Part shown: one piece after another, positions 1 through 24,447 of the stretch | How positions within the stretch are numbered: position 1 is the stretch's first letter | Layout of the letters: each line of letters begins with the position of its first letter | From: a virus | DNA length: 27,313 nt | Reading direction: 5' to 3' (one strand) | Virus record (IMG/VR): IMGVR_UViG_3300042883_000687 | Coordinates: 1-27,313 of that record | Made by a program: the position numbers and the translations under genes | Notes under the pieces: model-generated | Database searches by the model: none | The model's input: only the letters and a program-made list of their open reading frames with translations | Told to the model about the DNA's origin: nothing

Positions 1-596
1 GAATAGATCCTAGTGTAAGTAATATAATGGATATTTTTCTTTTAACAAGAACCTACGATACCGAATTTAGAAAGTATATATCAGGAGCTATCCCCCAACC
101 TGAAGTACCAACCAGTGACGCATTGAGAATAGCGTTTGGTAAACAGTTGAATTTAATTAAATCTATTAGTGATGAATTAATTTATCATCCTGTAAATTAC
201 AAAATTTTATTCGGTAGTACAGCTGATCCTAAATTGCAGGCACAATTTAAAGTGGTTAAAAATCCGTATAAAACAATCAACGACAATGATCTAAAGGTGA
301 GAATAGTCTCAGCAATCAACAGCTTCTTTGATATTAATAATTGGGATTTCGGAGATAGATTTTATCTAGGTGAATTAATTACATACATTACCAATGAAGT
401 TGCTCCGGATGTCAGTAATCTTGTGATTGTACCTAGACAACCAGATCAATCATTTGGTAGTTTATTTGAAATACAAAGTCAACCAGAAGAAATTTTTATT
501 AGCGGTGCAACCGTAGACGATATAGTAATTGTCACCGCAATTACCGCGGTTGAAATACGTGCAGAAGTGGCATCTATAGTAAACTCAACACAATAA
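1..596 (+). CDS. Baseplate wedge protein, gp6-like, C-terminal part (5' end outside window)
   Basis: The frame is already open at base 3, ahead of the first ATG at 27, reading I-D-P-S-V-S-N-I-M-D-I. This is therefore the 3' part of a longer gene and not a 189-residue protein starting at 27. The segment IDPSVSNI, then TYDTEFRKYI, LQAQFKVVKNP, INNWDFGDRFY and FGSLFEIQ, matches what I know of the C-terminal region of gp6-type baseplate wedge subunits in T4-like marine phages. In T4, gp6 joins neighbouring wedges around the hub and contacts gp7 and gp53. No membrane segment or signal peptide is seen. The stop at 594-596 lies four bases before the next ATG, so the two genes should be co-transcribed and probably translationally coupled. 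The assignment rests on recalled family motifs; the T4-like gene order supports it. Confidence 0.8.
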   Translation, partial: IDPSVSNIMDIFLLTRTYDTEFRKYISGAIPQPEVPTSDALRIAFGKQLNLIKSISDELIYHPVNYKILFGSTADPKLQAQFKVVKNPYKTINDNDLKVRIVSAINSFFDINNWDFGDRFYLGELITYITNEVAPDVSNLVIVPRQPDQSFGSLFEIQSQPEEIFISGATVDDIVIVTAITAVEIRAEVASIVNSTQ

Positions 597-600
597 GATT

Positions 601-3600
601 ATGGCAAAAGATATTTTCCCTCAAAGTCAGTTACCTATTCGCAGAACTGTAGAACTTCTCCCAGAAGTCTTTCAAACCGAAACCAATGCAAAATTTATGT
701 CTGCAGTGGTTGATCCGTTGGTTCAACCTGGTACATTATCTAAAACAGTTGGTTATGTAGGTCGTAGATATGGTAAAACTTATAATGGTTCGGATGTATA
801 TCTGGACACAGATACAACCCTTAGAAGTAGATATCAACTAGAACCAGGTGTCACAGTCAAAGAAAAAGATAAAGTAGAAAATTTTTATGATTATATTGAT
901 TTTAAAAATCAATTGAAGTTTTTTGGTAACAATCTAGAAAGAGATGATTTAATTACAGATCAGGATCATTATTCTTGGACTCCGCCAATTGACTGGGACA
1001 AGTTTGTAAATTTCCGTGAATACTACTGGGTACCAGATGGTCCCCCGCCTGTTACTATATTTGGTCAACGGCAGGCTATAACCAGTACATATAGAGTAAG
1101 ATTAGGAGTAGGTTCATCATGGATATTTTTTCCGGATGGCCTATCGTTAAATCCTACCCTCACACTATATAGAGGACAAACATACAAGTTTCAAGTCAAT
1201 GCACCGGGCGAAGGGTTTGTTATTAAAACAGCCTATGATACTGGGTCATTGATTTACAAACCCTACCTACCATATCAACAAGGTCAATTTGCTGTATTCA
1301 ACAACAAGTTATGGAAAGCCAAAACTTTTATTGCGGTCACTGATGGCAGCACCATAGATGAAGATAGTCAAGACTGGGAGTATGTCGAAGACGCTAGTCA
1401 GGCTACTGCATTGGATTATAATATAGGAATCACCGGACAAGGAGCAACCAACGGCACATTAACTTTTACTGTACCGTTTGATGCACCCGATGTGCTGTTT
1501 TATCAAAGTAGCACAGACATTGATAGATTCGGCAGATTCATTATTGCAGACATTGAATCAAATACCAAAATTGATATCACTAATGAAGTTATCGGTAAAA
1601 CCACATATGTTAGTAGCAACGGCATTACGTTTACTAACGGTATGAAAGTTCGATTTTCTGGTTTAGTAATACCTACAAAATATTCCACAGACACCTGGAT
1701 AATAGAGGGTGTTGGAGAATCTATTAAATTAATAAGATTTCAAGATTTATCCCCTCCGACTCTTAGTACATCGAGTTTAGAAGTATTGTTTGACGACGGC
1801 GGATTCGACACAGAGCCCTTCGATGATGCAGCTACATATCCAGAATCAAAAGACTATATTACAATTAATAGAGCCAGCCAAGATTCAAATCCTTGGAGCA
1901 GATACAACAGATGGTTTCATAGATCAGTTCTAGAACAGGCACATAGCTTTAACAATAGCGAGTTTGATTCGATCGAAACAGCTCGAGCCAAGAGACCTAT
2001 TATTGAATTTTCTTCAAATCTGCAGTTATTCAATCATGGTAGTCTAGCAAAAACTCCAGTTGATTTTATTGACACTTTTACCGCCGATGTATTTTCAACC
2101 ATAGAAGGCAGCCTTGGTTACAACGTTGACGGTGAAGAATTATTTAATGGTGCTAGATTATTGGTCACAGCAGATACCGATACATTAGCCAACAATAGAA
2201 TTTACACAGTAAATTTTATAACTCATAATAATCGCAGACAAATTAATTTGGTAGAAACTACTGACGCAAATTCTACCATCGGTGACGGAGTGTTTGTTAG
2301 ACGAGGTCTACTAAACAAAGGAATAATGTACCACTTTAACGGTACATCTTGGGTGCCTAGTCAAAAGAAAACAGCAGTAAATCAAAGTCCGTTATTTGAT
2401 GTATTCGACGATAACGGTGTTAGTTACGGAGACATGGATACATATCCTGTTAGCAGCTTCTTAGGAACCAAACTAGTAAGTTATAAAGTTGGAAACAGTA
2501 TTGTTGATACTGAATTAGGATTTAGCTTAAGTTACCTAAATATCAACAATGTAGGAGATATTGAATTTAATTTTGACTGGGAGATAGATTCATTTGATTA
2601 TCATTCTAGTAAAGAAGTATTTTTTAAAACCATAAGACAGGGATATTATAAATTTAATAATACAGGAAGTTATGCTAACGGATGGATTAAAACCGACCGA
2701 GACTATCTACAACCAATAATTTATAGCACCACGGTAACCGAAGCTTCAACACAAATTGTCAGCGATGGAATCAAATGGGCAAATGTCCAAGACAGTGAAA
2801 TTTCTAAAATTTTAATCTACATCAATGGAATAAAATATTCTGGAAACTACACTAGAAATCAGAATATTTTTACGTTTCCTGACAGTCTTAAAATAAATGA
2901 CATTGTTACCGTTAAAGTTTTTGCAGATGCAGATCCCGATCTAGGATATTATGAGATTCCGGTAGGACTTGAAAAAAATCCCTTAAACGATGAAGTAAAA
3001 ACATTTACTCTAGGACAGGCTGTTGATCATGTTTCAACAGCAGTAGATCTATTCGATCAATTCAGTGGGTCATATCCAGGATTAAGTAATCTAAGAGATA
3101 TCACAGGTTATCAAAATCTTTCAAGAAGATTTTTAAAACACTCGGGAATTACACCCACAGCAATAATGTTACTGTGCGATAAACACGTAAACATTATTAA
3201 ATCTATCCAGTACGCAAAAAAATCTTACACAGAATTTAAAAATAACTTTATTAAATTTGCTGAAACTGCCACATACAATCTAGATCCTGTTGAATTTGTT
3301 GATGAAATTTTGGCCATTATGTCCAAAGTTAAAACGCAAAAAGATGCGTTTGCAGATTCTGATATGGTAGGCAGCGGCGCATACAATCTTAAAGAATACG
3401 TTGTAGAAGATACTGGAATTATTACCTTTGCATTGAGTCAAAAATTTAATTTAACCGAATTAAGTAGAACCGCAGTTTATATCTATATAAACAATGTGCA
3501 GTTGATTCACGGTGTTGATTATACATTTAATGATACGTTTGGATTTGTTAGTATATCCAAAACACTAACAGAAGGGGATGTTATTCAAATAAAAGAATAT

Positions 3601-6600
3601 GTTTCTTCAAGTTTCTGTTTTATTCCGCCAACCCCTTCAAAGTTGGGGTTATATAAAACTTACATACCGTCTTTGTTTTTAGATGATACCTACGTAACTC
3701 CTATTAATGTCATTCAAGGTCACGATGGTAGTATCACAGTAGCCTACGGTGATTTTAGAGATGATGTATTATTAGAATTAGAAAAACGCATCTACAACAA
3801 CATCAAACAAGAATATACAGAAGAGTTGTTTAGCCAAGATAATATTCTTGGAGGATACTACGGATCATCTACATATACTAAACAAGAATTAGACAGCGTG
3901 ATCAGTTCTGAATTTCTAAGATGGTTTTCTGAAACAAATGTAGATTATCTAACTAACACCTTTTTTGACAGTGAAGATTCTTTTACCTACACTTATTCAA
4001 ATATGGGAGACCCGACCGGTCAGTTAAATTTGCCCGGATGGTGGAGAGGAGTTTATACTTGGTTATACGATACTGATAGACCACATCGTTGTCCCTGGGA
4101 AATGTTGGGATTTAGTCAACAACCTAGTTGGTGGGAAGACCAATACGGAGCAGCCCCATATACAAGTAATAATTTACTATTGTGGGAAGATCTAGCTGGC
4201 GGCATAATTCGTCAAGGATCTCGTGCAGGAATTTATGATAGATATAAAAGAGCTACACTACTAAATCATATTCCTGTAGACGGTGACGGCAACCTGTTAA
4301 GCCCATTTGATTCTGGAGCAGCTACTAATTTTGTTTTGTACAACAACAAAGGAACATTTAAATTTGGCGACCAAGCCCCAGTAGAATATGCATGGCGCAG
4401 TAGCAGCGACTATCCATTTGTTATTATACTGGCTCTATGTCTAATGAGACCTTACGAATTTATCATTGAAACTTTTGATAAATCTAGAATAAAAGTCAAC
4501 AAAATTGGCCAGACGGTTAATAAAAATACAAATTTATTTTTTAAAAATTCAGACATTATTATTCCAACATCTGGAGGCAATCAAACTTCCGGCCTTGTAA
4601 ATTATGTTGTAGATTACTTAAGATCGAGAGGATTAACTGAATCAGTTCTGCAAAAGAAAGTAGACAATTTAGATGTTAATTTGTCCACAAGATTAAGTGG
4701 ATTTGTAGATCAAAGTCAACAAAAATATATTTTAGATAGTAAGAATCCCAGCGCCAGTACTAGCAATATTTTTCTTCCTCAAGAAAATTATGACATTAAT
4801 TTTAATATTAGCTCACCAATTTCTAGCCCAAGTTACAGTGCATTGGTAATTGAAAAATTAGCCAGCGGCTTCAAACTTTTTGGTTATGACATCAGCGAAC
4901 CTTATTTTAAATATTTTGAAGCTGTCAAAAGCGCCAATGATCCTTTGCTGTCAGTTGGCGGCGTGAGTGAAAATTTTATCGATTGGGAAGCCAACAAGAT
5001 TTTTGGTAATGGAACAATAATTAGAGTATCTGATATTTTTTACAGATGTATTAAATCACACACAAGTGGCATAGAATTTGACGCACAATTTTGGCAAAGA
5101 ATCGCAAAATTACCGTTAGTAGGTGCAGTAGAAGTTTTTAGAAGAAGAACGGTAAACAGTGCCGCAGTAAATGAATTACCTTACGGCACAGTATTTGCAT
5201 CTCTACAAGACATAGCAGATTTTATTATAGGTTATGATGCATATTTGCAATCACAGGGATTTGAGTTTACTGGCTACGACGGAAATCTAGAATCAGCTAA
5301 AGATTGGATAACGTCAATTAAAGAATTATTGTTTTGGTCCAAGCATAAATGGGCCGAAAGTTCATTAATCACGTTAAGTCCCGCTGCTGCAAAAATTGAG
5401 TTGAACATTGATATTGGTGTTGCAGACAATCTTCTTGATAGCTTTTATGATTATAATATTTTAAAAGTTGATGGAACTATTCTTCCTGTGGAATTTATTA
5501 ATGTAAACAGAGAGTTTAAAAAATTAACAGTAGATGTTGTCAACGACTCCGACGGCATATACTTCTTTAGATGTTATTTTGTTTTAAAAGAACATGTAAC
5601 AATTTTTGATGATCGCACAGTGTTCAATGATGTTATCTATGACAAACCAACCGGCTATCGTCAAGAGCGTATCAAGAGTCGCGGATTCCGCACAGTAGAC
5701 TGGGACGGTGATTATACTAGTCCTGGATTCTTGTTTGACAACGTTAATATACAGATCTGGCAACCTTTTACTGATTATAAACTAGGTGACATTGTCAATT
5801 ACAAATCTTACAATTGGACTAGTCTAGTAAATCAACAAGGATCAGACCAATTCAAAGACAGCAATTGGACCAAATTAGACACAACTCCTGCTAAAGGCCT
5901 GATCAGCAATTTTGATGTTAGAGTCAGCCAGTTTGAAGATTATTACAACGTGGATGCTGACGGTGCAGGTGCTAGTCAGCGTGAGCTAGCAAGACACCTT
6001 ATAGGATATCAAACTAGAGAATATTTGCAGAATCTTGCAGAAGATAATGTCACGCAATTTAAATTGTATCAAGGTTTCATTAGAGAGAAAGGTACAGCTA
6101 ACGCTGTGGTCAAAGTTTTTGACAAGCTCAGCAGAATCACTGCCGACAGCATTGTGCTAGATGAAGAATGGGCATTTAATGTTGGTAGATTGGGAGGTCT
6201 AGATCAACTTAATGAAATAGAATTTGAAATTGTTAAAGACAATCTGTTGGTAAATCCACAGGCCATAGTTGTTACAAATGGACCAATTGATAAAAATTCA
6301 TTAGACAAATATCTAAGAGTAAATCAAACTAACTTTACTAGGTCTCTAATTCCTTACAGTGTTAATATCAATCCTTTGACCAAGTATCAAGGAATTACAA
6401 GAAATGCTGGATATGTAAAAACAGATCAAATAGAATTATTTGTAAAATCAAGAGAAGAAATATTATCACTAGATATTTCATCTCTAGTTGAAAATTCTCA
6501 CATATGGGTTACTTTCGATAATGCATCTTGGACAGTTTTGAGATTTAATCTCTCTACTGCTCTAACAATTGAAGACATCGTCAAAAATTCCGGCACAAAC

Positions 6601-9600
6601 ATAGTCACTGTTACTGTAAGTCAAAAACACGGACTTGCTGTGGATGAAATTGTAGGCATAAAAGACATTGAAAATTTTACTGGATTTTACAAAGTTGTAG
6701 CTGTCACTGATTATACCTTTGCTGTTCAAGCTGCCGCTGGACCTACGCCAGCTGCTCCAGACATCAGTTCCATACAATACAACATATATCTGTTGACTCA
6801 ATCTCGATTTAATTCTTATCAGGATATTGGAGATCAAACCGCTGCCCTGTTAAAGCAAGGGTCAAAATTATGGATCGACAATGCCGACGCAACAGTGGGC
6901 AATTGGGAAGTTGTTGAAAAACAAAGACTGTACGCTGAAAAAATCATTACTAATTTTGGTGCCACGGATCCTAGAAATACAGGAAGAGCTGTGGTATATG
7001 CTGCCAACCTTAAACAGGTTATCACAGGTATACCATCTGCCAACTCCGTAATGGTGTACTCGGAAACTGCTACAGGTTTATCTGTAAAAGAAATACTACA
7101 GCCAGAGACCGGATTTACAAATACAACGGCAAATAGTTTTGGAGATGCTATTGCTATTAGTCCTGATAATGTTTGGTTGGCAGTAGGAGCTCCCTTAGCT
7201 TCCGGAGTACCTAGTAGATTCAAAGGAATTTACGAAGACACTTACTCGTACATTGCCGGCGATATAGTGTTGCAAAATGGAAAATTATGGGAAGCCACTA
7301 ACGATCAACAACCTGGTGATGGCAGCACCAACACTCTCAACACGTTGTCTGAAGATTTTAGAAATGACGATTGGAAACTTGTTGATATAGTCTATGCCAA
7401 TGCATCAGGATCTCTAGGACCAGTAAATCAAGGTTTAGTGATTCTGTACAAACGAAAAAATAATGCATGGGAATTGCAACATACAATTCTTAGTCCCCGA
7501 ATTGAAGCGAATGAAAAATTTGGATTCAGCATATCTATTGGAGTTTCTGGAGCAAATTACTACATGTCGATCTCTGCTCCAGGATCTCTCAATAATCTAG
7601 GCAGGGTATATCTTTACAAATACACAGGTACAACAGCAGGATCAACTACACAGATTCTTACATTTAATGGCACTAGTGCTGTAAATTATGTAGTGAATAC
7701 AATTACATTTTCAAGAAATCATAATTATGTCACCGGTCAACTTGTAAGATATCTCAATGGCACATATGCCGGAGATGATAAATCTCTAGCAACATCGCCG
7801 CCGCCACCTGAAGATTACACCATTTTGTATGTAATAAGAATTACAGACACTGTCATACAATTAGCAACTTCAGTAGTAAACGCTACAACTGGAACAGAAA
7901 TTGACCTCAAAGATTTTGGTATAGATGATTCAAGTTCTCATACTTTAATCAGTACAGCCACTGTTGGTTGGAAACAAATGGGAGATCCTGAATACAGAGG
8001 ATTGTATTCCAACAGTGCTAGTTCTATTTACAGTCAAGGATCCAAAGTTTGGTATGAAGGAAAAATATATCAGGCACTAGAAGACACCTACGGTGATGGA
8101 ACATCGCTTGATTTATCTACCAGTAATTCTTGGCAAGTGTTAGATGAGTCTGTAACTGAAGTTTCGCTGCCATCAAACATTGCTTTGATCGACAGCGGAA
8201 ATATACAGCCGATTTTTCAAGACAGTTCTACAGCTATTCTAGGATCAGTATATCCTTTAGTCACAGCCGGCAATTTTATAGTAGGCGAAATTTACACTAT
8301 TGAAGATTACGGAACTACAAATTTTGAAATTATAGGTAGTAATCCTGCAGCCGGAGACGGCCTAACATTCAAAGCTACTGGAGTTGGTTCCGGTACAGGT
8401 ACAGCCAGATGGATATCCTATCAGTTTGCAGAATTAATTAAAGCCGGCGATATGTTTGGTCAAAGCCAAGCCATGAGTCGAGATGGCAGTATTTTAGTAG
8501 TCGGAGCCCCTGAAAGTGACGGAATATACATTGCTAATTACAAAGGTTTGTGGACAAATTATCAAACATACTACGAAGATGATGTAGTAAAATATTTTGG
8601 AAATTATTATAGATTAGTTGATTACAATCCTATTACAGGCGGCGAAGCAGATTCGTCTGAAGATTCTACTTATATTACAACTAGCAAAAATGATATTCCT
8701 ACAAGCAGCAGTCCTCAAGGCCCGTGGACTCTTGTTAGTTCTGAAATTTCTCTTCCTTCCGGAAAGATTTTTATCTACAAAAGAAATTCCAGCGACGTCT
8801 ACGAACTAGCTCAAACAATTACTGCTGGTTCGCTAACTGAAATTAGTGATGTGTCGACTATTGACAATCTAAACACCGGAGACAAATTTGGAGCAGCAGT
8901 AGACATTGATTATAACGGCACCACAATTATTGCCAGCAGTCCGCAAGCAGATGTAAAATCTTCTGATCAGGGTGCAGTGTTTGTGTTCAAATCAGCACAC
9001 TTGGATAATATTTCTTATAGATTAAAACAAAGATTAATCAGCCACGAAAATTATGTCAATGAATATTTCGGTTCTGCTATCAGTATAAGTCCTGCAACAG
9101 AAAAAATAGTTGTTGGTGCAACCAATGCTAGTTTTAACCTGTTTACAATATATGATCAAGGGTCTACATCTTTTGATAATACAAACACCACATTCAGTTC
9201 CGACGAAGGTAATACAGGACAGGTCTATGTATTTGAAAGAAAAGATCAAACCTATCATCTAACAGAAAAATTATATGTACCAGATCTCCAAGACTGGGAA
9301 TCATTTGGTTCTAGTGTAGACTGTATTGGCTCTGTAATAGCTGTAGGATCTCCTACCTATCGTGATACTGTGTATAGGATAGGTGTTAATTTTACAACCA
9401 CTATTCTATTGGGTGCTAGCGGAAACAATGCACTTACAGTAGACGTAGTAATACAAGGCGGAGTAATTGTATCTGCTGTAGCTAAGGATTCTGGAGCTGG
9501 ATATACTGTCAGTGACATGGACGATGCTACTGATGCTATTGAAATCAACGGATCTGCAGACAAAGCTCGTATTAAAGTACAGACAATGTCAGGTGGTACT

Positions 9601-12600
9601 ATAACTAGTTTGTTTGTGGTTTACGGAGGCAGTGGATACACCGGCAGTGCAGAAGTCATTGAAACTGGCCAGGTTAGATTGTTTACTAAAGACACAACTA
9701 AAAATCCGTGGAACACCATTGCCTCTAGACAAGACCTAACTGATATAGAATTGTTTAAAAACATTTCAATGTACGATAATGAAAACAATGTAAAAATTTC
9801 AGACATTGAAATAGTTGATCATTACAAATTAAAAATACTAGGCGCAGCCGAACAAGAATTAAAGTTTAAAACTCTGTATGATCCTGCCACATATACCAAC
9901 GGCACTAATCAACAAGAAGTTGATGAATCTCAGGCCTGGTTTGAAAAACATGTCGGAGAACTATGGTGGGACCTAAGTACAGCCAAATGGTTGCTGTATG
10001 AACAAGGAGATATTTCTTATCGAATCGGTAATTGGAATCAACTGGCCTACGGTGCAAGCATTGATGTATATGAATGGGTAGAATCAAAATATTTGCCTAG
10101 CAGATGGACTGTGTTGGCAGATACAACCGAAGGTCTTGCACAAGGAATTTCAGGCCAGCCGTTATACCCAGATAATACAGTGTATTCTGTAAAGATTTTA
10201 ACTAATCCTTCAACAGGCGAAACTACAGATACAAAATATTATTATTGGGTCAAGAATAAAAATATAGTGCCAAAAAATGTTCCAGGCAGAAGAATCACGG
10301 CTTTGGATGTAAAGAGTTATATTGAAAACCCAATAGGCACAGGACAGCCTATACTGTCTCCAATAGCCGCAGATACCCTATTGGCGTTCAATTTTGAATC
10401 TTTAATTTCTTCAAATACCGCGTTGATTAATATTCAATATAGAAAAAATCTAAAAGCCTTAAATGCTATTCACAATGAATATCAGTTGTTGACTGAAGGC
10501 GTTGCAGACAGTCTTCCAACAGAAACTCTAGAAGCCAAATGGATAGACAGTTTAGTAGGGTACGATCTTGCTGGTAACATAGTACCGGACGCTGATATAC
10601 CTATTAAGCAAAGATACGGTATAAGTTTTAGACCCCGTCAGGCAATGTTCAAAGATAGATTTGCTATTTTAAAAACAGTAATTATCAATATTAACTCAGT
10701 TTTAAAAACTCGAGCGTTTTCCGATACTTTAAATTTTATCAACCTTGGATCAGTTGATCCAGAACCGGCTACTGTATTAAATCAGTACGATGTACGTGTA
10801 GACACACTAACTGATCTTGCAGAAGTGGGAACAACAAGGGTAAAAAAAGCTGTATTAAGAGCCAATATTGTTGACGGAGAAATTGATACTATTGATATTG
10901 TTGATTCGGGATTTGGCTACAGGAATGCCCCATTTGTTAACATTGAAGGAAACGGACAAGGAGCCACAGCACGAGTAACCATTGACAGTCAAGGCAGAAT
11001 AAATTCTGCTACTGTGTTGTCCAAAGGTCGCCGTTATACAGCTGCCGTAGCAGAAATAAGATATTTTTCTGTTCTAGTGGCTCAAGATAGTTCAATCAAC
11101 AATTACTGGAGTATCTATTCCTGGGATGATATAAGAAAAACTTTCTTCAGAGCCAAGTCTCAGGCGTTTAATACTAACAACTATTGGGAATATATTGATT
11201 GGTGGCAAGACGGATATGGAGTGACTTCGAGAATAGTTAAAGAAATTACTGACCTTTATCAAGAGCCTGCAATATCTGTTAACGTAGGTGACCTAATACG
11301 TGTTCAAGAATTTGCCAATGGAGGCTGGGCAGTTTTAGAAAAAACTGAACCTACTCAAGGTAATATTTTAGATAATTACATTCTTGTTGGCAGAAAAAAT
11401 GGTACTATTAATTTAATAATTGACGATCTAGTGTCTGTACAAAATATAGGATATGACAATGCTATTTCTTTTGATGCTAACGTTTATGATATAAATCCTA
11501 CACAAGAACTGCGTAACATTTTGAGAGCAGCCAAGGAAGATATTTTTATTGAAGACCTTAGAGTAGAATGGAATAAATTATTCTTTACCAGTATTCGATA
11601 TGCGTTTGTAGAACAACCATACATCGATTGGGCTTTTAAGACAAGTTTCTTAAACGCTACTCATAATGTTGGAGATTTAGAGCAAAAAATAAATTACAAA
11701 AATGATAATTTAGAAAACTTTCAAGAATACATAGAAGAAATCAAACCTTATAGAACCACAATTAGAGAATATATTTCCAAATACACAGATAGAGATACTT
11801 CGTATTCGGGAACTACTGACTTTGATTTACCTCCAGTATATTCAACTCAAGATGGAAAAATATTACCAATTAGATCAAACAGCGACAGATTTAGTAGCTA
11901 TCCCTGGAAGTGGTGGAATGACAATAACGGATACGTTGTTACTGAAATTTCTGTATCTAACGGAGGTGCCGATTACACAGAAGTTCCTAGTGTGATAATT
12001 GAAGGCAACGGTACCGGAGCAACAGCTCAGGCATTTGTGGCCAATGGCAGTGTTGTAGCTGTAAAGGTTCTAAACAAAGGCCAAGGTTATACACAGGCTC
12101 CTAGTATCAGACTAGTTGGTGGCAACGGAACCAGTCAAAGCATTGCCAAGGCTGTGGCCATAATTGGTGAAACTGCGGTAAGAACATTTGACCTAACTGT
12201 GAAATTTGATAGGGTTGCTAAACAAGGAATATATCAAACATTTACAAAATCTGAAATTTTTACAGCCACAGGATTTTCTGCAGTGTTTCAATTACAGTAT
12301 GCACCTAACAGAGATAAGAGCAAGATTTCAATAACTAAAAATAATCAAATTGTATTGAACAGTGAATATACAATCACGTTGTATACTTCCACAACAGATA
12401 CGTACAGTTTGATCAAAGGTAAATTAATTTTTAATACAACTCCAGCTCCGGGTGATGTGATAGAAATAAACTATGAAAAGAATGTAGAATTATTTGATAG
12501 TATAAACAGAATCGAAAACTACTATGCACCTACTGAAGGAATGCGTGGCAATGAACTGGCACAGTTAATGACTGGTATCGACTTTGGTGGTGTTCAAATT

Positions 12601-15267
12601 CAAGGAACAACCTTTGATGTTACTGGCGGATGGGATGCTCTTCCTTGGTTCACTGACAGTTGGGACAGTGTAGAATCCAACAGTGATTTTTACTATGTGG
12701 CAGACGGAAGTACTATTGCAGTGACATTGCCATTTATTCCTGCGGCAGGAGAACAGATTTCTATATATTGGAAACCTTCAGGAACCAGAATTCCTGGCGA
12801 TATACAAACACTTGGCAGCGCCACAAATCCACAGGTTATTACAGAATCAGGAATCACTGCTCTTAAAACAATTAGGGTAGATGATCCTAACTGGATTCAA
12901 AATTGGGACAGTTCAAACGCCACTAATCCCAACGCACAAATGCCTACATTTATAGGAGATGGCTCTACTAGAGTAGTTGAAATTGGTCAATATATCAGTG
13001 TAGAACCAGGCGATACCTTAATCTTCCGCAAGTTAGACAGCGACGGATCAGTGACCATTACCGATGTAAATCTTTTAGATACTAAATTGAGCGGCGGGTC
13101 TTTATCAAATATCAGCGGTGCGTATCAAACAGCCAACGGTCTTACAGCTGAAGAAATTATTATAGACGGTGATAAATTTATCAGTCCGGATCAAGTGCCA
13201 GCCCCTGAAGAAAACATTCCTGGTCAAGTGTTAGAAAGTGTAAGCATCAAAGTGTTCCATACCTATCCTCAAGGATCTGCCTTGATACAAAATACTATTG
13301 TATATTCAGATGGTGTAAAATTTAGATATGCTATAGGTATTGATATATTAGAAAATAATTCAGTGATTGTTTATATTAACAAAATCAAACAAGAACTTTA
13401 TCAAGATTATACCATAGACTACGAAACCAACGAAGTGATATTTAACTATGTGCCGATCAGTGCCACTATAATTGAAATACTAGCATTTGGACTAGGCGGT
13501 ATAAATTTATTAGACTATCAAGAATTTATTGCAGACGGTGCAACCTCATTATTTTTAACCAAAGCAATTTTCAGTCAAACTGCATCAATATTGGTCACAG
13601 TTAACGGTGATGCCGTTGACACTGGATTTCTAGACAGTGCTGATTTTACAGATACTCCAAATAAAACGTTGGTACAGTTTGGTATTGCTCCAGCGATCGA
13701 TAGTGTGGTTAAGGTAGTATGCTTGGGTCCTGGCCTAGATACTGACTCAACCGGACAGAGTATAATTAGAGTTAATAATCAAACTATAGTCTACGACGGG
13801 TCAACTACTAGATTTGTAGTAGATAAATTTGTTAATTTGTCCAGAGCATCGGCTATATCTAACCTACTGATAAACATTAATGGACAACAGGTTAACGGCC
13901 CTGATACCGTGTTAACAGTCTACGACGGAACTAACAATCAAATTATCATTGGAGTAGATCCAATAAGATTCCCAGGCTCAATAACTTATCCTGATATTCA
14001 AGTATTTGTAAACAACACTCCAACAATTCAGGTAGTAGACTACACACTTAATTCTGGATCTAATATTATTACTGTGCGACCAGACATTCTAGATATAGGT
14101 GATGTTATTAGAATTGTTGTTACTGCATTTGCAGATTATCAAATAGACAGTGATGAAATTGTTTTTACAGATGCAATTATGGCCACCTTGGAAAACAACG
14201 ATGACAGCACTACAAAAGATATAATTGAAATTGTTTGGTTTAGTGAATATCCTAGTATGGACATTGTAGCTGATCAATTTTCAGGAGGAAAGGTTCAGTA
14301 TCAACTTTCTAGAACTCCTATAAATTCTAGTTATGTATGGGTCTATATAAACGGAGTAAGACAAACACAGGATCGTGATTTTAGTGTATCTCTGCCAAGA
14401 GGGGTAGTATATCTAAATGTTGAAACAACTATCGAAGATGCTGTAAAAATTGTTGAATTTGGCAATGACATTTATAAATTTCCTAGTGCATATGAAATTT
14501 ATAAAGATATGTTGAACATATATCATTTTAAACGCTATAGTAGAAATGATGTTAAGCTAGCAATAGCATTGAATTATTATGATCAAAGCATCACAGTAAT
14601 TAACGGTGATCAATTGTATGATCCAACTGATCGACCAGTGTCGGGTATTGTATACATCAATAATGAAAGAATAGAATATTTGCAAAAGTCTGGAAATGTA
14701 CTTACACAACTTCGTAGAGGAAGTTTAGGAACTGCTATTGCGGCAATTCACGCAGAGGGTAGTTTTGTCACAGACAGCGGTCCTTTAGAAACTATTCCGT
14801 ATAATGAAACACAACACCGATTGGATTTTGTCAGCGACGGCAGCACACTATTAGTTGGCCCTTTAGATTTTGTTCCTACACAGGGAACTAGAAGCTCATG
14901 GTACCGTGGAATTGACACTGTAACAGGTGGCCCTAACATTCCTGTAACCTACGGACCATGCGATCAACTAGAAATATTTGTAGCTGGCACTAGATTACGT
15001 AAAAACCCTGTCGATGTATTCGATGAAGATCTAGGACCCAATGGCAGCAAAGAAATAGAAGCAGAATTCAGTGTGGATGGAACAAGTCCTTACGTAAGGA
15101 TAACTAAAGCAATACCAGCAGGTACACGCATCACTGTAATAAGAAAAACAGGAAGAACTTGGTATGATCGAGGTGTTACAACAGCATCGGCTGGAAAAAC
15201 TCTACAGCAAAATGCCACCGCGATCAGCAATTTTATTTTACAAAAGACAACCATCATACCAGAATAA
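601..15267 (+). CDS. Giant (4888 aa) virion structural protein, likely baseplate wedge/peripheral protein at the gp7 position
   Basis: One intact frame encodes 4888 residues. Conserved baseplate-type segments recalled from large structural proteins of T4-like marine phages include: an N-terminal region ending near GRRYGKTYNGSDVYLD; VIQGHDGSITVAYGDFRDD (about 1038-1056); a Trp-rich block with LPGWWRGVY and RPHRCPWEMLGF (about 1144-1170); AFVEQPYIDWAFKTSF near 3660-3680; and LRRGSLGT near 4715. Between these lie an FG-GAP-like propeller (about 2179-3020), six aromatic CBM-like modules, three GNGxGA beta modules and at least eight VNG/DYT modules. No enzyme active site, signal peptide or membrane helix is apparent. 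The gene directly follows the gp6-like gene, as gene 7 does in T4, but it is nearly five times longer than T4 gp7 (about 1030 residues). The gp7-equivalent role is inferred from gene order. The Shine-Dalgarno sequence is weak and coupling to the upstream stop is likely. An alternative is a fused baseplate-plus-fibre protein. Confidence 0.82.
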   Translation: MAKDIFPQSQLPIRRTVELLPEVFQTETNAKFMSAVVDPLVQPGTLSKTVGYVGRRYGKTYNGSDVYLDTDTTLRSRYQLEPGVTVKEKDKVENFYDYIDFKNQLKFFGNNLERDDLITDQDHYSWTPPIDWDKFVNFREYYWVPDGPPPVTIFGQRQAITSTYRVRLGVGSSWIFFPDGLSLNPTLTLYRGQTYKFQVNAPGEGFVIKTAYDTGSLIYKPYLPYQQGQFAVFNNKLWKAKTFIAVTDGSTIDEDSQDWEYVEDASQATALDYNIGITGQGATNGTLTFTVPFDAPDVLFYQSSTDIDRFGRFIIADIESNTKIDITNEVIGKTTYVSSNGITFTNGMKVRFSGLVIPTKYSTDTWIIEGVGESIKLIRFQDLSPPTLSTSSLEVLFDDGGFDTEPFDDAATYPESKDYITINRASQDSNPWSRYNRWFHRSVLEQAHSFNNSEFDSIETARAKRPIIEFSSNLQLFNHGSLAKTPVDFIDTFTADVFSTIEGSLGYNVDGEELFNGARLLVTADTDTLANNRIYTVNFITHNNRRQINLVETTDANSTIGDGVFVRRGLLNKGIMYHFNGTSWVPSQKKTAVNQSPLFDVFDDNGVSYGDMDTYPVSSFLGTKLVSYKVGNSIVDTELGFSLSYLNINNVGDIEFNFDWEIDSFDYHSSKEVFFKTIRQGYYKFNNTGSYANGWIKTDRDYLQPIIYSTTVTEASTQIVSDGIKWANVQDSEISKILIYINGIKYSGNYTRNQNIFTFPDSLKINDIVTVKVFADADPDLGYYEIPVGLEKNPLNDEVKTFTLGQAVDHVSTAVDLFDQFSGSYPGLSNLRDITGYQNLSRRFLKHSGITPTAIMLLCDKHVNIIKSIQYAKKSYTEFKNNFIKFAETATYNLDPVEFVDEILAIMSKVKTQKDAFADSDMVGSGAYNLKEYVVEDTGIITFALSQKFNLTELSRTAVYIYINNVQLIHGVDYTFNDTFGFVSISKTLTEGDVIQIKEYVSSSFCFIPPTPSKLGLYKTYIPSLFLDDTYVTPINVIQGHDGSITVAYGDFRDDVLLELEKRIYNNIKQEYTEELFSQDNILGGYYGSSTYTKQELDSVISSEFLRWFSETNVDYLTNTFFDSEDSFTYTYSNMGDPTGQLNLPGWWRGVYTWLYDTDRPHRCPWEMLGFSQQPSWWEDQYGAAPYTSNNLLLWEDLAGGIIRQGSRAGIYDRYKRATLLNHIPVDGDGNLLSPFDSGAATNFVLYNNKGTFKFGDQAPVEYAWRSSSDYPFVIILALCLMRPYEFIIETFDKSRIKVNKIGQTVNKNTNLFFKNSDIIIPTSGGNQTSGLVNYVVDYLRSRGLTESVLQKKVDNLDVNLSTRLSGFVDQSQQKYILDSKNPSASTSNIFLPQENYDINFNISSPISSPSYSALVIEKLASGFKLFGYDISEPYFKYFEAVKSANDPLLSVGGVSENFIDWEANKIFGNGTIIRVSDIFYRCIKSHTSGIEFDAQFWQRIAKLPLVGAVEVFRRRTVNSAAVNELPYGTVFASLQDIADFIIGYDAYLQSQGFEFTGYDGNLESAKDWITSIKELLFWSKHKWAESSLITLSPAAAKIELNIDIGVADNLLDSFYDYNILKVDGTILPVEFINVNREFKKLTVDVVNDSDGIYFFRCYFVLKEHVTIFDDRTVFNDVIYDKPTGYRQERIKSRGFRTVDWDGDYTSPGFLFDNVNIQIWQPFTDYKLGDIVNYKSYNWTSLVNQQGSDQFKDSNWTKLDTTPAKGLISNFDVRVSQFEDYYNVDADGAGASQRELARHLIGYQTREYLQNLAEDNVTQFKLYQGFIREKGTANAVVKVFDKLSRITADSIVLDEEWAFNVGRLGGLDQLNEIEFEIVKDNLLVNPQAIVVTNGPIDKNSLDKYLRVNQTNFTRSLIPYSVNINPLTKYQGITRNAGYVKTDQIELFVKSREEILSLDISSLVENSHIWVTFDNASWTVLRFNLSTALTIEDIVKNSGTNIVTVTVSQKHGLAVDEIVGIKDIENFTGFYKVVAVTDYTFAVQAAAGPTPAAPDISSIQYNIYLLTQSRFNSYQDIGDQTAALLKQGSKLWIDNADATVGNWEVVEKQRLYAEKIITNFGATDPRNTGRAVVYAANLKQVITGIPSANSVMVYSETATGLSVKEILQPETGFTNTTANSFGDAIAISPDNVWLAVGAPLASGVPSRFKGIYEDTYSYIAGDIVLQNGKLWEATNDQQPGDGSTNTLNTLSEDFRNDDWKLVDIVYANASGSLGPVNQGLVILYKRKNNAWELQHTILSPRIEANEKFGFSISIGVSGANYYMSISAPGSLNNLGRVYLYKYTGTTAGSTTQILTFNGTSAVNYVVNTITFSRNHNYVTGQLVRYLNGTYAGDDKSLATSPPPPEDYTILYVIRITDTVIQLATSVVNATTGTEIDLKDFGIDDSSSHTLISTATVGWKQMGDPEYRGLYSNSASSIYSQGSKVWYEGKIYQALEDTYGDGTSLDLSTSNSWQVLDESVTEVSLPSNIALIDSGNIQPIFQDSSTAILGSVYPLVTAGNFIVGEIYTIEDYGTTNFEIIGSNPAAGDGLTFKATGVGSGTGTARWISYQFAELIKAGDMFGQSQAMSRDGSILVVGAPESDGIYIANYKGLWTNYQTYYEDDVVKYFGNYYRLVDYNPITGGEADSSEDSTYITTSKNDIPTSSSPQGPWTLVSSEISLPSGKIFIYKRNSSDVYELAQTITAGSLTEISDVSTIDNLNTGDKFGAAVDIDYNGTTIIASSPQADVKSSDQGAVFVFKSAHLDNISYRLKQRLISHENYVNEYFGSAISISPATEKIVVGATNASFNLFTIYDQGSTSFDNTNTTFSSDEGNTGQVYVFERKDQTYHLTEKLYVPDLQDWESFGSSVDCIGSVIAVGSPTYRDTVYRIGVNFTTTILLGASGNNALTVDVVIQGGVIVSAVAKDSGAGYTVSDMDDATDAIEINGSADKARIKVQTMSGGTITSLFVVYGGSGYTGSAEVIETGQVRLFTKDTTKNPWNTIASRQDLTDIELFKNISMYDNENNVKISDIEIVDHYKLKILGAAEQELKFKTLYDPATYTNGTNQQEVDESQAWFEKHVGELWWDLSTAKWLLYEQGDISYRIGNWNQLAYGASIDVYEWVESKYLPSRWTVLADTTEGLAQGISGQPLYPDNTVYSVKILTNPSTGETTDTKYYYWVKNKNIVPKNVPGRRITALDVKSYIENPIGTGQPILSPIAADTLLAFNFESLISSNTALINIQYRKNLKALNAIHNEYQLLTEGVADSLPTETLEAKWIDSLVGYDLAGNIVPDADIPIKQRYGISFRPRQAMFKDRFAILKTVIININSVLKTRAFSDTLNFINLGSVDPEPATVLNQYDVRVDTLTDLAEVGTTRVKKAVLRANIVDGEIDTIDIVDSGFGYRNAPFVNIEGNGQGATARVTIDSQGRINSATVLSKGRRYTAAVAEIRYFSVLVAQDSSINNYWSIYSWDDIRKTFFRAKSQAFNTNNYWEYIDWWQDGYGVTSRIVKEITDLYQEPAISVNVGDLIRVQEFANGGWAVLEKTEPTQGNILDNYILVGRKNGTINLIIDDLVSVQNIGYDNAISFDANVYDINPTQELRNILRAAKEDIFIEDLRVEWNKLFFTSIRYAFVEQPYIDWAFKTSFLNATHNVGDLEQKINYKNDNLENFQEYIEEIKPYRTTIREYISKYTDRDTSYSGTTDFDLPPVYSTQDGKILPIRSNSDRFSSYPWKWWNDNNGYVVTEISVSNGGADYTEVPSVIIEGNGTGATAQAFVANGSVVAVKVLNKGQGYTQAPSIRLVGGNGTSQSIAKAVAIIGETAVRTFDLTVKFDRVAKQGIYQTFTKSEIFTATGFSAVFQLQYAPNRDKSKISITKNNQIVLNSEYTITLYTSTTDTYSLIKGKLIFNTTPAPGDVIEINYEKNVELFDSINRIENYYAPTEGMRGNELAQLMTGIDFGGVQIQGTTFDVTGGWDALPWFTDSWDSVESNSDFYYVADGSTIAVTLPFIPAAGEQISIYWKPSGTRIPGDIQTLGSATNPQVITESGITALKTIRVDDPNWIQNWDSSNATNPNAQMPTFIGDGSTRVVEIGQYISVEPGDTLIFRKLDSDGSVTITDVNLLDTKLSGGSLSNISGAYQTANGLTAEEIIIDGDKFISPDQVPAPEENIPGQVLESVSIKVFHTYPQGSALIQNTIVYSDGVKFRYAIGIDILENNSVIVYINKIKQELYQDYTIDYETNEVIFNYVPISATIIEILAFGLGGINLLDYQEFIADGATSLFLTKAIFSQTASILVTVNGDAVDTGFLDSADFTDTPNKTLVQFGIAPAIDSVVKVVCLGPGLDTDSTGQSIIRVNNQTIVYDGSTTRFVVDKFVNLSRASAISNLLININGQQVNGPDTVLTVYDGTNNQIIIGVDPIRFPGSITYPDIQVFVNNTPTIQVVDYTLNSGSNIITVRPDILDIGDVIRIVVTAFADYQIDSDEIVFTDAIMATLENNDDSTTKDIIEIVWFSEYPSMDIVADQFSGGKVQYQLSRTPINSSYVWVYINGVRQTQDRDFSVSLPRGVVYLNVETTIEDAVKIVEFGNDIYKFPSAYEIYKDMLNIYHFKRYSRNDVKLAIALNYYDQSITVINGDQLYDPTDRPVSGIVYINNERIEYLQKSGNVLTQLRRGSLGTAIAAIHAEGSFVTDSGPLETIPYNETQHRLDFVSDGSTLLVGPLDFVPTQGTRSSWYRGIDTVTGGPNIPVTYGPCDQLEIFVAGTRLRKNPVDVFDEDLGPNGSKEIEAEFSVDGTSPYVRITKAIPAGTRITVIRKTGRTWYDRGVTTASAGKTLQQNATAISNFILQKTTIIPE
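7216..8740 (+). repeat. Three CBM5/12-like aromatic modules inserted between propeller blades
   Basis: Three units begin with [F/Y][K/R]G[I/L][Y/W] and continue with a G-D/S-x-V strand, a second aromatic strand, and a closing W-x-L-V/L. They start at residue 2207 (FKGIYEDTY ... GDIVLQNGKLWEA ... DDWKLV), 2465 (YRGLYSNSA ... GSKVWYEGKIYQA ... SWQVL) and 2647 (YKGLWTNYQ ... DDVVKYFGNYYRL ... GPWTLV). Related units occur elsewhere in the protein near residues 219-262, 1458-1502 and 1720-1757. The layout resembles small chitin/cellulose-binding modules of the CBM5/12 type. Binding of a sugar is inferred only. Confidence 0.55.
8266..8412 (+). other. Small 'GTTxF ... GTGTA' beta module within the giant protein
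   Basis: Residues about 2556-2604 read AGNFIVGEIYTIEDYGTTNF, then a spacer, then FKATGVGSGTGTARW. I recall this short cassette as recurring in many phage tail and fibre proteins of aquatic viruses, usually as an inserted unit. It lies between an aromatic CBM-like module and the third FG-GAP blade. Its function is unknown; it is probably a surface-exposed beta unit. Confidence 0.45.
9439..12160 (+). repeat. Three dispersed GYxxxPxVxIxGNGxGATA beta modules
   Basis: Copies lie at residues about 2947-3020, 3425-3482 and 3780-3854. The two clearest contain APFVNIEGNGQGATARVTID and VPSVIIEGNGTGATAQAFVA. Each is followed by a strand of the form V-x-V-x-x-x-G-x-G/R-Y-T (VLNKGQGYT in the last copy). 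The first copy is diverged but keeps GAGYT and GGSGYT. The units look like short beta repeats common in phage fibre and baseplate proteins. Confidence 0.5.
12325..15150 (+). repeat. C-terminal array of 'VNG ... DYT ... GDVI' beta modules
   Basis: At least seven related units fill the last quarter of the giant protein. Each has a strand ending in a turn such as INK, VNG, ING, VNN or VAG, then a 'xDYTI' or equivalent turn, then a strand and a 'GDVIxI' style closing strand. Examples are SVIVYINKIKQELYQDYTID, ILVTVNGDAVDTGF, LLININGQQVNG, IQVFVNNTPTIQVVDYTLN, YVWVYINGVRQTQDRDFSV and QLEIFVAGTRLRKNP. Two more occur far upstream, near bases 2811-2931 (ILIYINGIKYSGNY) and 3471-3603 (VYIYINNVQLIHGVDYTF). 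They are probably tandem beta-sandwich units of a rod-like or peripheral part. Confidence 0.55.
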
Positions 15268-15274: not shown

Positions 15275-15937
15275 ATGAATAATAATTTCAACGAGCTCGA
15301 TATGCCCAACGAACAAAAACAACCAGAAAAAACACCTAACGAAAGTGGTGGATTCCACATCGAGGGACACATTAAAATATTTGATCCTGAAACAGGAGAG
15401 GTATTTCAAGATAAACGAAATGCCATCCATTATGAAAATATGAGTGTGGCCATGGTTAACAGTCTTAGCAATCAAGGGCAGGGCTGGATTTACCAAATGG
15501 TTTTTGGCAACGGCGGAACCACAGTAGACCCAACTGGACTGATCAGCTATCTAACACCAAACACTGTAGGAGTAAACACCAGTCTTTACAATCAAACCTA
15601 TGCCAAAGTAGTGGACAAAAATGCCACAGAAAATACAGATCCTATTAGGAATAAAATGGAAATTAGGCACATAAGCGGAGCCACTTACAGTGACATTATT
15701 ATTAGTTGTTTATTAGATTACGGCGAACCAGACGGACAGGATGCATTTGACAACAGTCAAGATATGAGTGGCAATTTTGTTTTTGATGAACTGGGTTTAA
15801 GATCTTATAGCGACAGCGGCACCGGCAAATTATTAACTCATGTGATTTTTCACCCTGTTCAAAAATCTCTAAACAGGCTATTACAAATTGATTATACGAT
15901 TCGTGTACAGAGTTTAACTGGATTCACAGAGGTTTAA
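15275..15937 (+). CDS. Conserved T4-like phage virion-type protein of unknown function (220 aa)
   Basis: The protein has 220 residues. The region GHIKIFDPETGEVFQDKRNA followed by IHYENMSVAMVNSL is a signature I recall from a protein found beside the fibre genes of T4-like marine phages. The rest contains an internal WIYQMVFGNGG stretch and ends in a beta-rich part (HVIFHPVQKSLNRLLQIDYT). No catalytic motif, signal peptide or membrane segment is visible. The frame stays open upstream to 15164, but that part overlaps the giant gene, so ATG 15275 is preferred. ATG 15302 (MPNEQKQ, weak GAG upstream) is a real alternative. Placed between the giant baseplate protein and the first fibre gene, with a tandem TAATAA stop abutting that gene's ATG, it is probably a structural or fibre-attachment component. 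That role is inferred from context. Confidence 0.75.
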   Translation: MNNNFNELDMPNEQKQPEKTPNESGGFHIEGHIKIFDPETGEVFQDKRNAIHYENMSVAMVNSLSNQGQGWIYQMVFGNGGTTVDPTGLISYLTPNTVGVNTSLYNQTYAKVVDKNATENTDPIRNKMEIRHISGATYSDIIISCLLDYGEPDGQDAFDNSQDMSGNFVFDELGLRSYSDSGTGKLLTHVIFHPVQKSLNRLLQIDYTIRVQSLTGFTEV

Positions 15938-15940
15938 TAA

Positions 15941-18022
15941 ATGCCATATATTGTAAATTTTACCGATAACGAAAATAAGACACCGATCACGGTCTACGAT
16001 AACACCTCAAATACAGATACCAGTTTGACATTTCCAGGAAGAAATGTTACCGGGTATGGTCAAACCATTGGTCAAAATTTCCTAGCTCTGTTAGAAAATT
16101 TTGCAGGTCCGGCCCAACCAGTCAACCCTATTGAAGGGCAGTTATGGTTCGACACCAACACAAGAACACTACAAATCTACGACGGTGTTGCTTGGAAAGC
16201 AGCCAGCGACATTCAAAAGAGTGTTGTAGCTCCTTCTGTTGAACAAAGTAAAGTTGGTGAACTTTGGGTAGACACTGTAAATCAACAACTATATGTTTTT
16301 TCCGGCACTGACTGGATTTTAGTTGGTCCTAATTTTTCAACAGGACTATTAAGTGGTCCTTTAGTTGAACAGATTATAGACACCAATAACGCTACCAAGG
16401 TAGTTTTAACTTTTTATGTAGAAGATAAACCGGTTGTAATTATTAGCAAAGACAGTTTTACCCCAAAAAATTCTATTACAGGATTCCTTGCAATTAGGTC
16501 CGGTGTGAATATGTCGGCTACAACAGATCTTGGACTAGGAGGATTCGCTCCTAAATTGTACGGAACAGCCACTTCAGCAGACGGATTAAATGTCAGTGGG
16601 GTAGTAATCGACAGTGGTAAATTCCTCAGATCGGATATTACAAATACCACTGAATTTGGATTGAACATAAGAAATAATTCAGGCATTAATATTGGAGTAG
16701 ATAGTTCATTTAATCTTTCTAACTCAGCTACTTCTGCTAAAATCTATAATTCTTCAGCAGGCAGTAGCATTGATATTCAACTGAATTCTGACGGTATACC
16801 TAACACAGTGCTAAGAGTAATCGATAATAAAGTAGGAGTTAACAATCTTAGTCCACAAGAATCGTTGGACGTAATTGGTAACACTAAAATTAGTGGAAAC
16901 TTAGTTGTTGATAGCACAGTAGGCACCACTAATCTCAGCAACGGCTCAATTAGAACTGCTGGAGGATTGGCAGTAACTAAGAATGCATTAATCGGCACAA
17001 CTTTAGAAGTGGTCGGAACCACCATCGCAAGAAATATTGATCCAGCATTAAACGATACTTTTGAATTTGGCAGTGTTACTAAACGTTGGAAAACAATTAG
17101 GGCACAGACTATTATTGCAGAAACCGTAGAAGGAGTTCTAGGAGGAGACATCAGTGGCAATGCTGTCACTGCCACAAGTTTACAAAATACCACAGCATTT
17201 TCTATCACAGGAGACATAGCTTCAACAGCTCCAGTAACTTTTAACGGTAGCACCGGCGGTTATACAAAAACATTTAACACAACACTTTCTTCTTCTATTA
17301 TCAGTAGTAAAGCAGAACCAAGTCCCAATAGATCTAAAACAGATGATTTTGTTTTGGTTTTTAGATCAAGTACCAGCGGATTACTTAAACAATCTAGAGA
17401 TACATTCATAGCTGACCTAGGATTACCAATTGGTGCTATTCTTCCTTATGCAGGTTCCAGTGCTCCGTATGGATTTTTGTTCTGCGATGGCGGCGAAGTA
17501 GAAAGAGGAAAATTTTCTGATTTATACGATATTATTGGCACAACCTACAACGGCAATGATCCATTAGTTGGAGTTAATACTTTTAGAATTCCTGATCTAA
17601 GAGGTAGATTTGCTCTAGGAAGAGATAACATGGATAATGGTATTACAGTGCCTAACAGTACTGGTGGATATGTAGAAGGCGGTGGCGGAGTGGTAGGAAG
17701 AGTATCCGGAACTGAACCTCAGAATGTTGGTCAGTCCAGCGGTGCGTCGACTCAAACATTGTTGATTAGAAATCTCCCAGATCATGAACACGATATGGTA
17801 GGTAGTACAGGCGGTCAATATGCTGCTGTAAAGTTAGATACTGCTTTACCAACTGATTTCGGTGCATTTTTAGATGCAGGACCAACAGCAGCAGGTAAAT
17901 TTAATTATCTTCCTAATTCGGGAGGTATCAAAACCACAAGTCCGTTAAGTGACGCATTTTCATTGATGAATCCGTTCCTAACTATAAACTACATTATTAG
18001 GTCAGGACCACCTGCATTCTAA
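15941..18022 (+). CDS. Tail fibre/adhesin paralogue 1 with C-terminal tail-collar domain (693 aa)
   Basis: The N-terminal ~130 residues belong to the attachment family shared by the next three genes: GYGQTIGQNFLALLENFA, then EGQLWFDTNTRTLQIYDG, then GELWVDTVNQQLYVF. The middle is a beta-rich shaft with GGLAVTKNALIGTTLEVVG and a WKTIRAQ turn, typical of trimeric fibres. Residues about 495-568 match the phage tail collar fold: LPIGAILPYAGSSAPYGFLF, CDGG, then FRIPDLRGRFALGRDNMDNG. The end carries NLPDHEHD and NPFLTINYIIRSG, the usual C-terminal pattern of such fibres and similar in kind to the T4 gp12 collar domain. It probably forms a trimeric short fibre or adhesin on the baseplate. AGAGG at 15928-15932 is an eight-base-spaced ribosome site, and the upstream tandem stop abuts the ATG. 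Confidence 0.85.
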   Translation: MPYIVNFTDNENKTPITVYDNTSNTDTSLTFPGRNVTGYGQTIGQNFLALLENFAGPAQPVNPIEGQLWFDTNTRTLQIYDGVAWKAASDIQKSVVAPSVEQSKVGELWVDTVNQQLYVFSGTDWILVGPNFSTGLLSGPLVEQIIDTNNATKVVLTFYVEDKPVVIISKDSFTPKNSITGFLAIRSGVNMSATTDLGLGGFAPKLYGTATSADGLNVSGVVIDSGKFLRSDITNTTEFGLNIRNNSGINIGVDSSFNLSNSATSAKIYNSSAGSSIDIQLNSDGIPNTVLRVIDNKVGVNNLSPQESLDVIGNTKISGNLVVDSTVGTTNLSNGSIRTAGGLAVTKNALIGTTLEVVGTTIARNIDPALNDTFEFGSVTKRWKTIRAQTIIAETVEGVLGGDISGNAVTATSLQNTTAFSITGDIASTAPVTFNGSTGGYTKTFNTTLSSSIISSKAEPSPNRSKTDDFVLVFRSSTSGLLKQSRDTFIADLGLPIGAILPYAGSSAPYGFLFCDGGEVERGKFSDLYDIIGTTYNGNDPLVGVNTFRIPDLRGRFALGRDNMDNGITVPNSTGGYVEGGGGVVGRVSGTEPQNVGQSSGASTQTLLIRNLPDHEHDMVGSTGGQYAAVKLDTALPTDFGAFLDAGPTAAGKFNYLPNSGGIKTTSPLSDAFSLMNPFLTINYIIRSGPPAF

Positions 18023-18032
18023 AGGATAAAAA

Positions 18033-19859: not shown

Positions 19860-19877
19860 GTTAAATACATAAGGAGC
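19852..19877 (+). promoter_or_regulatory. Candidate SD-covering hairpin before fibre gene 3
   Basis: GCTC-TTA at 19852-19858 pairs with TAAGGAGC at 19870-19877 with one bulged G at 19873: seven pairs and an 11-base loop. The right arm contains the whole ribosome site AAGGAG (19871-19876) of the gene starting at 19884. The left arm overlaps the TAA stop (19857-19859) of the upstream gene, so a terminating ribosome would open the hairpin, which suggests translational coupling. The stem is short and could be chance. Confidence 0.4.
19860..19867 (+). promoter_or_regulatory. Weak late-promoter-like box GTTAAATA in the hairpin loop
   Basis: Six of eight bases match TATAAATA, including the TAAATA core. 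It lies in the loop of the hairpin before gene 19884. At the usual late-promoter spacing the transcript would start near 19873, inside the ribosome site, which argues against it being a working promoter for this gene. Confidence 0.15.
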
Positions 19878-19883
19878 GAATCA

Positions 19884-21695: not shown

Positions 21696-21697
21696 TA

Positions 21698-21738
21698 AAT
21701 CTACTCAGATAAATAATAGAATAATATTGGAGTAGATT
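21698..21738 (+). promoter_or_regulatory. Perfect 9-bp SD-sequestering hairpin before fibre gene 4, with a late-promoter-like box in its loop
   Basis: AATCTACTC at 21698-21706 is an exact inverted repeat of GAGTAGATT at 21730-21738. The right arm covers three bases of the GGAG ribosome site (21729-21732) and ends one base before the ATG at 21740. The 23-base loop holds GATAAATA. A read-through transcript would fold and mask the ribosome site. A transcript starting from the loop box would lack the left arm and stay open. Confidence 0.6.
21708..21715 (+). promoter_or_regulatory. Probable T4-type late promoter GATAAATA
   Basis: Seven of eight bases match the T4 late box TATAAATA, with only the first base differing. 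T4 late boxes sit about six bases before the start of transcription. That predicts a start near 21721, downstream of the left hairpin arm and upstream of GGAG at 21729. The spacing suits expression of the fibre gene at 21740. Confidence 0.5.
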
Positions 21739-21739
21739 G

Positions 21740-24406: not shown

Positions 24407-24412
24407 CACCCG

Positions 24413-24445: not shown

Positions 24446-24447
24446 CA

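Follow-up and report, generated by a model that had tools for sequence, protein, structure and literature searches.

Organization of the locus

The window, meaning the whole stretch of DNA that was analyzed, comprises 27,313 bases and is the full extent of a partial IMG/VR record, IMGVR_UViG_3300042883_000687. Its genes and features, with the basis for each assignment in parentheses, are as follows.

3-596, plus strand: gp6-like baseplate wedge protein, C-terminal part, truncated by the window start (phrog_10646, E = 1.9e-63)
601-15267, plus strand: probable gp7 equivalent, a giant baseplate wedge protein of 4888 aa (phrog_10938, E = 0; position after gp6)
601-5880, plus strand: conserved N-terminal region of the giant, residues 1-1760, common to all jumbo relatives (conservation profile; tblastn)
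2749-2964, plus strand: beta adaptor-like module, residues 717-788 (internal repeat)
3397-3612, plus strand: beta adaptor-like module, residues 933-1004 (internal repeat)
5758-5865, plus strand: CBM5/12-like module, residues ~1720-1755 (Pfam PF02839)
5926-6183, plus strand: probable gp7 core helices with FYxxKGT-type motif, residues 1776-1861 (hhalign against gp7 core profile)
7108-9375, plus strand: FG-GAP beta-propeller region with CBM5/12-like inserts, residues ~2170-2925 (Pfam PF14312, PF02839)
9439-9675, plus strand: GxGY repeat module (phrog_438 positions 189-263 only)
9748-11880, plus strand: second conserved region, residues 3050-3760 (conservation profile; AlphaFold2)
10852-11067, plus strand: GxGY repeat module that accounts for the gp8-family match (phrog_438 positions 188-260 only)
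11938-12249, plus strand: GxGY repeat module (phrog_438 positions 198-302)
12253-12498, plus strand: beta adaptor-like module, residues 3885-3966 (internal repeat)
13294-13521, plus strand: beta adaptor-like module, residues 4232-4307 (internal repeat)
13519-13740, plus strand: beta adaptor-like module, residues 4307-4380 (internal repeat)
13780-13959, plus strand: beta adaptor-like module, residues 4394-4453 (internal repeat)
14269-14472, plus strand: beta adaptor-like module, residues 4557-4624 (internal repeat; PF13799, weak)
14545-14781, plus strand: IGxExIxY/RGxxGT module, residues 4649-4727 (hhalign probability 81%, E = 1.3e-5)
15275-15937, plus strand: conserved small protein beside the giant, 220 aa from its likely ATG (phrog_11259, E = 9.3e-71)
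15941-23488, plus strand: four fibre-like proteins with a common N-terminal domain (pairwise E = 1e-31 to 2e-53)

A preliminary description of this DNA, made from its letters alone, reported an intact frame of ~14.7 kb directly after a gp6-like wedge gene, and this is borne out. The giant open reading frame begins with ATG 4 bases after the stop codon of the upstream gene and runs for 4888 codons without an internal stop, whereas 50 shuffles of the window gave no stop-free run longer than 178 codons. Its product has a calculated mass of 544 kDa and a pI of 4.6. The upstream frame is ~39-44% identical to jumbo phage genes for gp6-like wedge proteins.

The small protein downstream of the giant has homologues in 87 jumbo phage records. 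The four fibre-like proteins that follow align pairwise over ~180-340 N-terminal residues, have in common an N-terminal domain of ~200 residues (33-47% identity), and differ in their downstream parts, and the first carries a tail-collar domain (Pfam Collar, 5.4e-18). Similar fibre-like proteins are found after the giant in related contigs. Farther along the window, positions 23498-25353 hold two adjacent paralogues of ~300 aa that are 50% identical to each other (E = 4e-96) and for which Pfam gives nothing above cut-off, and positions 25757-27312 hold two related frames (25% identity, E = 2.7e-8), the second of which runs off the window. The latter pair reads like glycosyltransferases and lacks a Pfam match.

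A single gene conserved among jumbo phages

Because close full-length relatives occur in other contigs, the giant is no assembly fusion; two such relatives, of 4918 and 4888 aa, are present in separate contigs (L042 and L044). In a few related contigs (L048, L067, and L070) the frame is broken once, as might be expected if sequencing or assembly errors had joined several genes into one. However, the broken copies resume with homologous sequence in another frame, one intact long frame is present in ~40 independent contigs, and isolate phages encode the homologue as one gene. These data in practice exclude an artefact of sequencing or assembly, to which we assign almost no probability.

In a PHROG search the giant matches phrog_10938 with an E-value of 0 and 1039.7 bits, in three stretches between residues 15 and 3776, and the similarity extends over most of its length. 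A tblastn search returned 87 phage records, and the matches listed are jumbo phages and short records of the same groups, with ~25-31% identity to the jumbo relatives over residues 10-1890. Complete genomes of relatives encode the homologue as one gene; its product measures 3857 aa in PA5oct, 4555 in Phosso, 3807 in SCTP-2, 3326 in RaK2, 4449 in Atu_ph07, 3341 in GAP32, 3342 in Munch, 3339 in XbC2, 3771 in Vibrio 2.275, and 3323 in 121Q. Relatives were identified on at least 592 IMG/VR contigs. Among 80 fetched IMG/VR loci, 46 have a closed longest frame (the one in L083 is a different gene), mostly of 4450-5550 aa, and the giant of the window is therefore a typical member of its family.

The gene order gp25-gp6-giant recurs in the jumbo relatives, and the homologue lies directly after gp6 in RaK2, PA5oct, Atu_ph07, Phosso, GAP32, 121Q, and XbC2. 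SCTP-2 is an exception. There the gp6-like match (H121) is located at 234 kb and the giant at 128-139 kb, ~95 kb away, so the pair is separated in that genome. The carrier of the window giant is probably a jumbo phage with a contractile tail, from the broad group that includes RaK2, PA5oct, and Atu_ph07.

RaK2 ORF070, 121Q gp582, phAPEC6 gp245, CBB_236, and GAP32_230 belong to the same family and occupy the same place after gp6, with the family match covering residues 1-1890 and 3050-3760 of the window giant. At 3323-3341 aa, the proteins of RaK2, 121Q, and GAP32 are ~1550 residues shorter than the window giant. Atu_ph07 gp180, Phosso gp294, PA5oct gp355, and SCTP-2 gp140 are also members at only ~27-30% identity, and the first two align with the window giant across its middle region as well.

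Within the family, residues 1-1760 and 3050-3760 are the most conserved; conservation drops in the stretch between them and again at the C terminus. This agrees in part with the proposal of conserved blocks at both ends. These blocks had also been called baseplate-type, which is not supported: they are family-specific, with neither a sequence match to T4 proteins nor a PDB fold match above threshold.

Giant proteins in the gene 7 position

The protein had been presented as exceptional in size, but giants in the gp7 position are already known from jumbo phages and cyanophages, and the present protein adds a large new member to this known class. The jumbo relatives reach 3323-4555 aa, and PSSM2_111 of cyanophage P-SSM2, which is annotated as gp7 and lies between gp6 and gp8, is 5195 aa long. 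Similarly, S-PM2p084 comprises 3048 aa and lies directly after gp6. The P-SSM2 and S-PM2 proteins share GxGY and RGxxGT-type modules with the window giant, and local similarity between them is confined to these repeats. In the cyanophage proteins, unlike the window giant, a gp7 core is clearly recognizable close to the N terminus, and a separate gp8 gene accompanies them.

Interruption of the gp7 core also has precedents. In cyanophage S-RIM14 (two records compared), two pieces of the core lie ~2 kb apart, and in gp17 of XM1, the minimal gp7 orthologue at 242 aa, domain I is interrupted and fibre-binding parts are present (PMC10457771). T4 gp7 (1032 aa) and XM1 gp17 are ~5-fold and ~20-fold smaller than the giant, respectively, and have in common with it the gene order and probable core helices. 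Residues 730-758 of T4 gp7 (L007, 9061-12156) match phrog_2885 (E = 1.3e-4), a "baseplate wedge subunit" family of 4179 positions that probably represents the cyanophage giants.

Evidence for a gp7 core

The order of the gp6-giant pair is that of genes 6 and 7 in T4, KVP40, P-SSM2, and S-PM2. For comparison at the sequence level, sequences of T4, KVP40, phiM12, HTVC008M, S-PM2, and P-SSM2 were combined with IMG/VR sequences into a gp7 core profile. Residues 1776-1861 of the giant family match it in hhalign with scores of 28-32, probabilities of 15-38%, and E-values of 3.3e-4 to 1.7e-3, the E-values being those of single comparisons in a scan of ~40 giant segments. This match keeps its register across three choices of template and is the sole reproducible one. 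By comparison, 390 column-shuffled comparisons reached at most 24.0, and decoys on the same motif at most 18.6 against 27-31 for the giant. The aligned motif reads (F/L)YxGxIxxKGT in the giant and DFYxxKGT in gp7, and it is kept in all 15 aligned family members, from the window giant to 121Q.

Other matches were set aside. The strongest gp7-profile match (residues 4649-4727, probability 81%) corresponds to the IGxExIxY/RGxxGT module, which is inserted in the gene-7-position protein of cyanophage S-PM2. One hhalign decoy scored 36, and it reflects a repeat within the giant that does not include the core motif. An N-terminal LPE-like motif was not significant against the gp7 profile in hhalign (E = 0.1-0.16), HMMER did not detect the gp7 core in the giant family, and BLAST of the giant against T4 gp5-gp11 and gp53 gave nothing significant.

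Profile searches of seven complete relatives detected no separate gp7-like frame, at a distance where sensitivity is limited; the control sequences T4, KVP40, P-SSM2, and S-PM2 were recovered at E-values of 1e-39 or better. The core match, the lack of a separate gp7 in these seven relatives, and the gene order together make gp7 equivalence likely rather than proven, in agreement with the preliminary proposal. We estimate a probability of roughly 80% that the giant serves a jumbo phage with a contractile tail as its equivalent of the wedge subunit gp7.

Alternatively, the giant might be a protein of the baseplate periphery or fibre lattice unrelated to gp7, with the true gp7 encoded by another small, diverged gene. 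Most of the giant sequence is not gp7-like, its fold matches are to fibre adaptor domains, tailspike domains, and CBMs, and its gp7 core match is weak. Against this, the position after gp6 is constant in the jumbo relatives read, no other gp7-like frame appears in the seven complete genomes, and the whole giant family keeps the FYxxKGT-like motif. We consider this alternative improbable.

Predicted structures and repeated modules

Residues 701-1900 and 3040-3960 were modeled with AlphaFold2 (mean pLDDT 74.6 and 79.5, respectively). In the first model pLDDT drops below 50 exactly at the gp7 core, perhaps because this segment folds together with gp6 partners. The 3040-3960 model had no match to PDB folds below E = 0.001, and the PDB matches of both models, all above that value, were repeatedly to tailspike, adaptor, and nozzle domains and to chitin-binding modules; gp7 is absent among those listed. 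A BFVD search with the 701-1900 model returned the protein's own family first, followed by fibre and adaptor proteins. The structure searches on these predicted models neither confirm nor refute the gp7 reading. At the sequence level, a PDB search with the single giant gave no match, family profiles gave only traces of CBM, chitinase, and depolymerase, and NCBIfam had no match on six giants.

The propeller insert noted in the preliminary description is well supported by Pfam (FG-GAP_2, E = 3.5e-16), and six FG-GAP-like blades can be placed by eye at residues ~2175, 2295, 2613, 2750, 2815, and 2895. Among six giants tested with Pfam, only that of the window has an FG-GAP match, unlike the proteins of RaK2, Atu_ph07, Phosso, PA5oct, and SCTP-2, and five have a CBM_5_12 match (E = 2.7e-9 in the window giant). 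Foldseek matches for the CBM5/12-like module include chitinase CBMs with a probability of 1.0 and E-values above 1e-3.

Seven repeated beta modules are present in the giant, two of them on the N-terminal side of the core and the other five toward the C terminus. The profile for this module was built from these seven copies, and independent instances are only an eighth, weak copy and one in PA5oct. The last of the seven has a weak Pfam match to PF13799 (DUF4183), with an E-value of 0.047 that is below cut-off.

Relationship to gp8 and gp10

The possibility that the giant replaces several separate wedge or fibre proteins, including gp8 and gp10, had also been raised. Its matches to the gp8 family phrog_438 are confined to positions 188-302, which correspond to the GxGY repeat common to other phage proteins, and an assignment as gp8 was rejected. 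An assignment as the neck protein phrog_460 was likewise rejected; by coordinates its best stretch, 3776-3917, falls on the GxGY repeat region. The gp10 profile phrog_958 is absent from the PHROG matches of the giant, and direct hhalign comparison with gp10 is weak (probability 16%).

Separate gp7, gp8, and gp10 homologues elsewhere in the genome had been named in the preliminary description as grounds for rejecting its reading, and complete relatives were searched for them. In these relatives, neither gp7 nor a convincing gp8 was detected at the limited sensitivity of the profiles; gp8 profiles found only the GxGY repeat and one trace with an E-value of 0.008 in the jumbo relatives. A gp10-like gene is present in PA5oct, where it matches the C-terminal positions 435-604 of gp10. 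The gp53 profile matches in 12 of 12 records, weakly in jumbo phages. In one contig (G001, that of L060), two other frames give weak matches to the N-terminal positions 2-79 of phrog_958 at 27842-27961 and 40407-40646, and these perhaps represent fibre anchors.

A stronger version of the gp7 reading, compatible with it, would have one chain per wedge supply the gp7 bundle helices and the whole periphery, including a sugar-binding propeller and docking for four fibres, so that gp8 and gp10 are dispensed with. The missing gp8-family matches in jumbo relatives would fit this version, as would the adaptor-like beta modules of the giant and its weak fold matches to the N-terminal domains of TSP4. 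However, the phrog_438 matches cover a mobile repeat only, P-SSM2 and S-PM2 keep a separate gp8 beside their giant gene-7 protein, and PA5oct has its gp10-like gene. Replacement of gp8 and gp10 is therefore unsupported, and we regard it as unlikely.

Presence in the virion

Proteomic data for relatives, which the preliminary description had suggested consulting, reveal a very large virion protein in phAPEC6, CBB, and PA5oct. The phAPEC6 virion contains gp245 (381.9 kDa), detected with 17 unique peptides and encoded next to the wedge gene for gp244 (PMC7247149), and the CBB virion contains CBB_236, detected with 21 peptides and encoded next to the wedge gene for CBB_237 (PMC5259590). From their size and their place beside a wedge protein, we take both to be homologues of the giant. 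For PA5oct gp355, an annotation note records detection by ESI-MS/MS. Thus, a virion protein in the gene 7 position, as first described, agrees with both the location after gp6 and the detection of homologues. A check for peptides along the whole length had been suggested as well; sequence coverage in the relatives is only 7-8%, and the homologue could therefore be cleaved in the virion.

A proposed architecture for the giant wedge protein

The T4 wedge contains two copies of gp6 and one of gp7 (PMC6300606, PMC10457771). By analogy, each wedge would contain a single copy of the giant, bundled with two copies of gp6 through a short helical core, which may consist of residues ~1776-1861 and possibly also a pair of helices at the N terminus. 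The remaining length would represent insertions and appendages on this core that build the periphery of the baseplate. In this layout, a large conserved region would be followed by the core, the FG-GAP propeller with its carbohydrate-binding-type modules, the second conserved region, and the adaptor-like beta modules, which could dock the downstream fibres. The intactness of the gene, its family, the gene order, the presence of homologues in virions, and the modules recognized by sequence are directly shown, whereas we infer the gp7 identity, the single copy per wedge, the sugar binding, and the fibre docking.

In RaK2-like and other jumbo phages, members of phrog_10938 carry no annotation beyond "virion structural protein." What the present analysis usefully adds is a probable function for these giants as gp7 equivalents. 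More broadly, the comparison suggests that gp7 is a scaffold to which surface modules have been added repeatedly, both in cyanophages and in jumbo phages.
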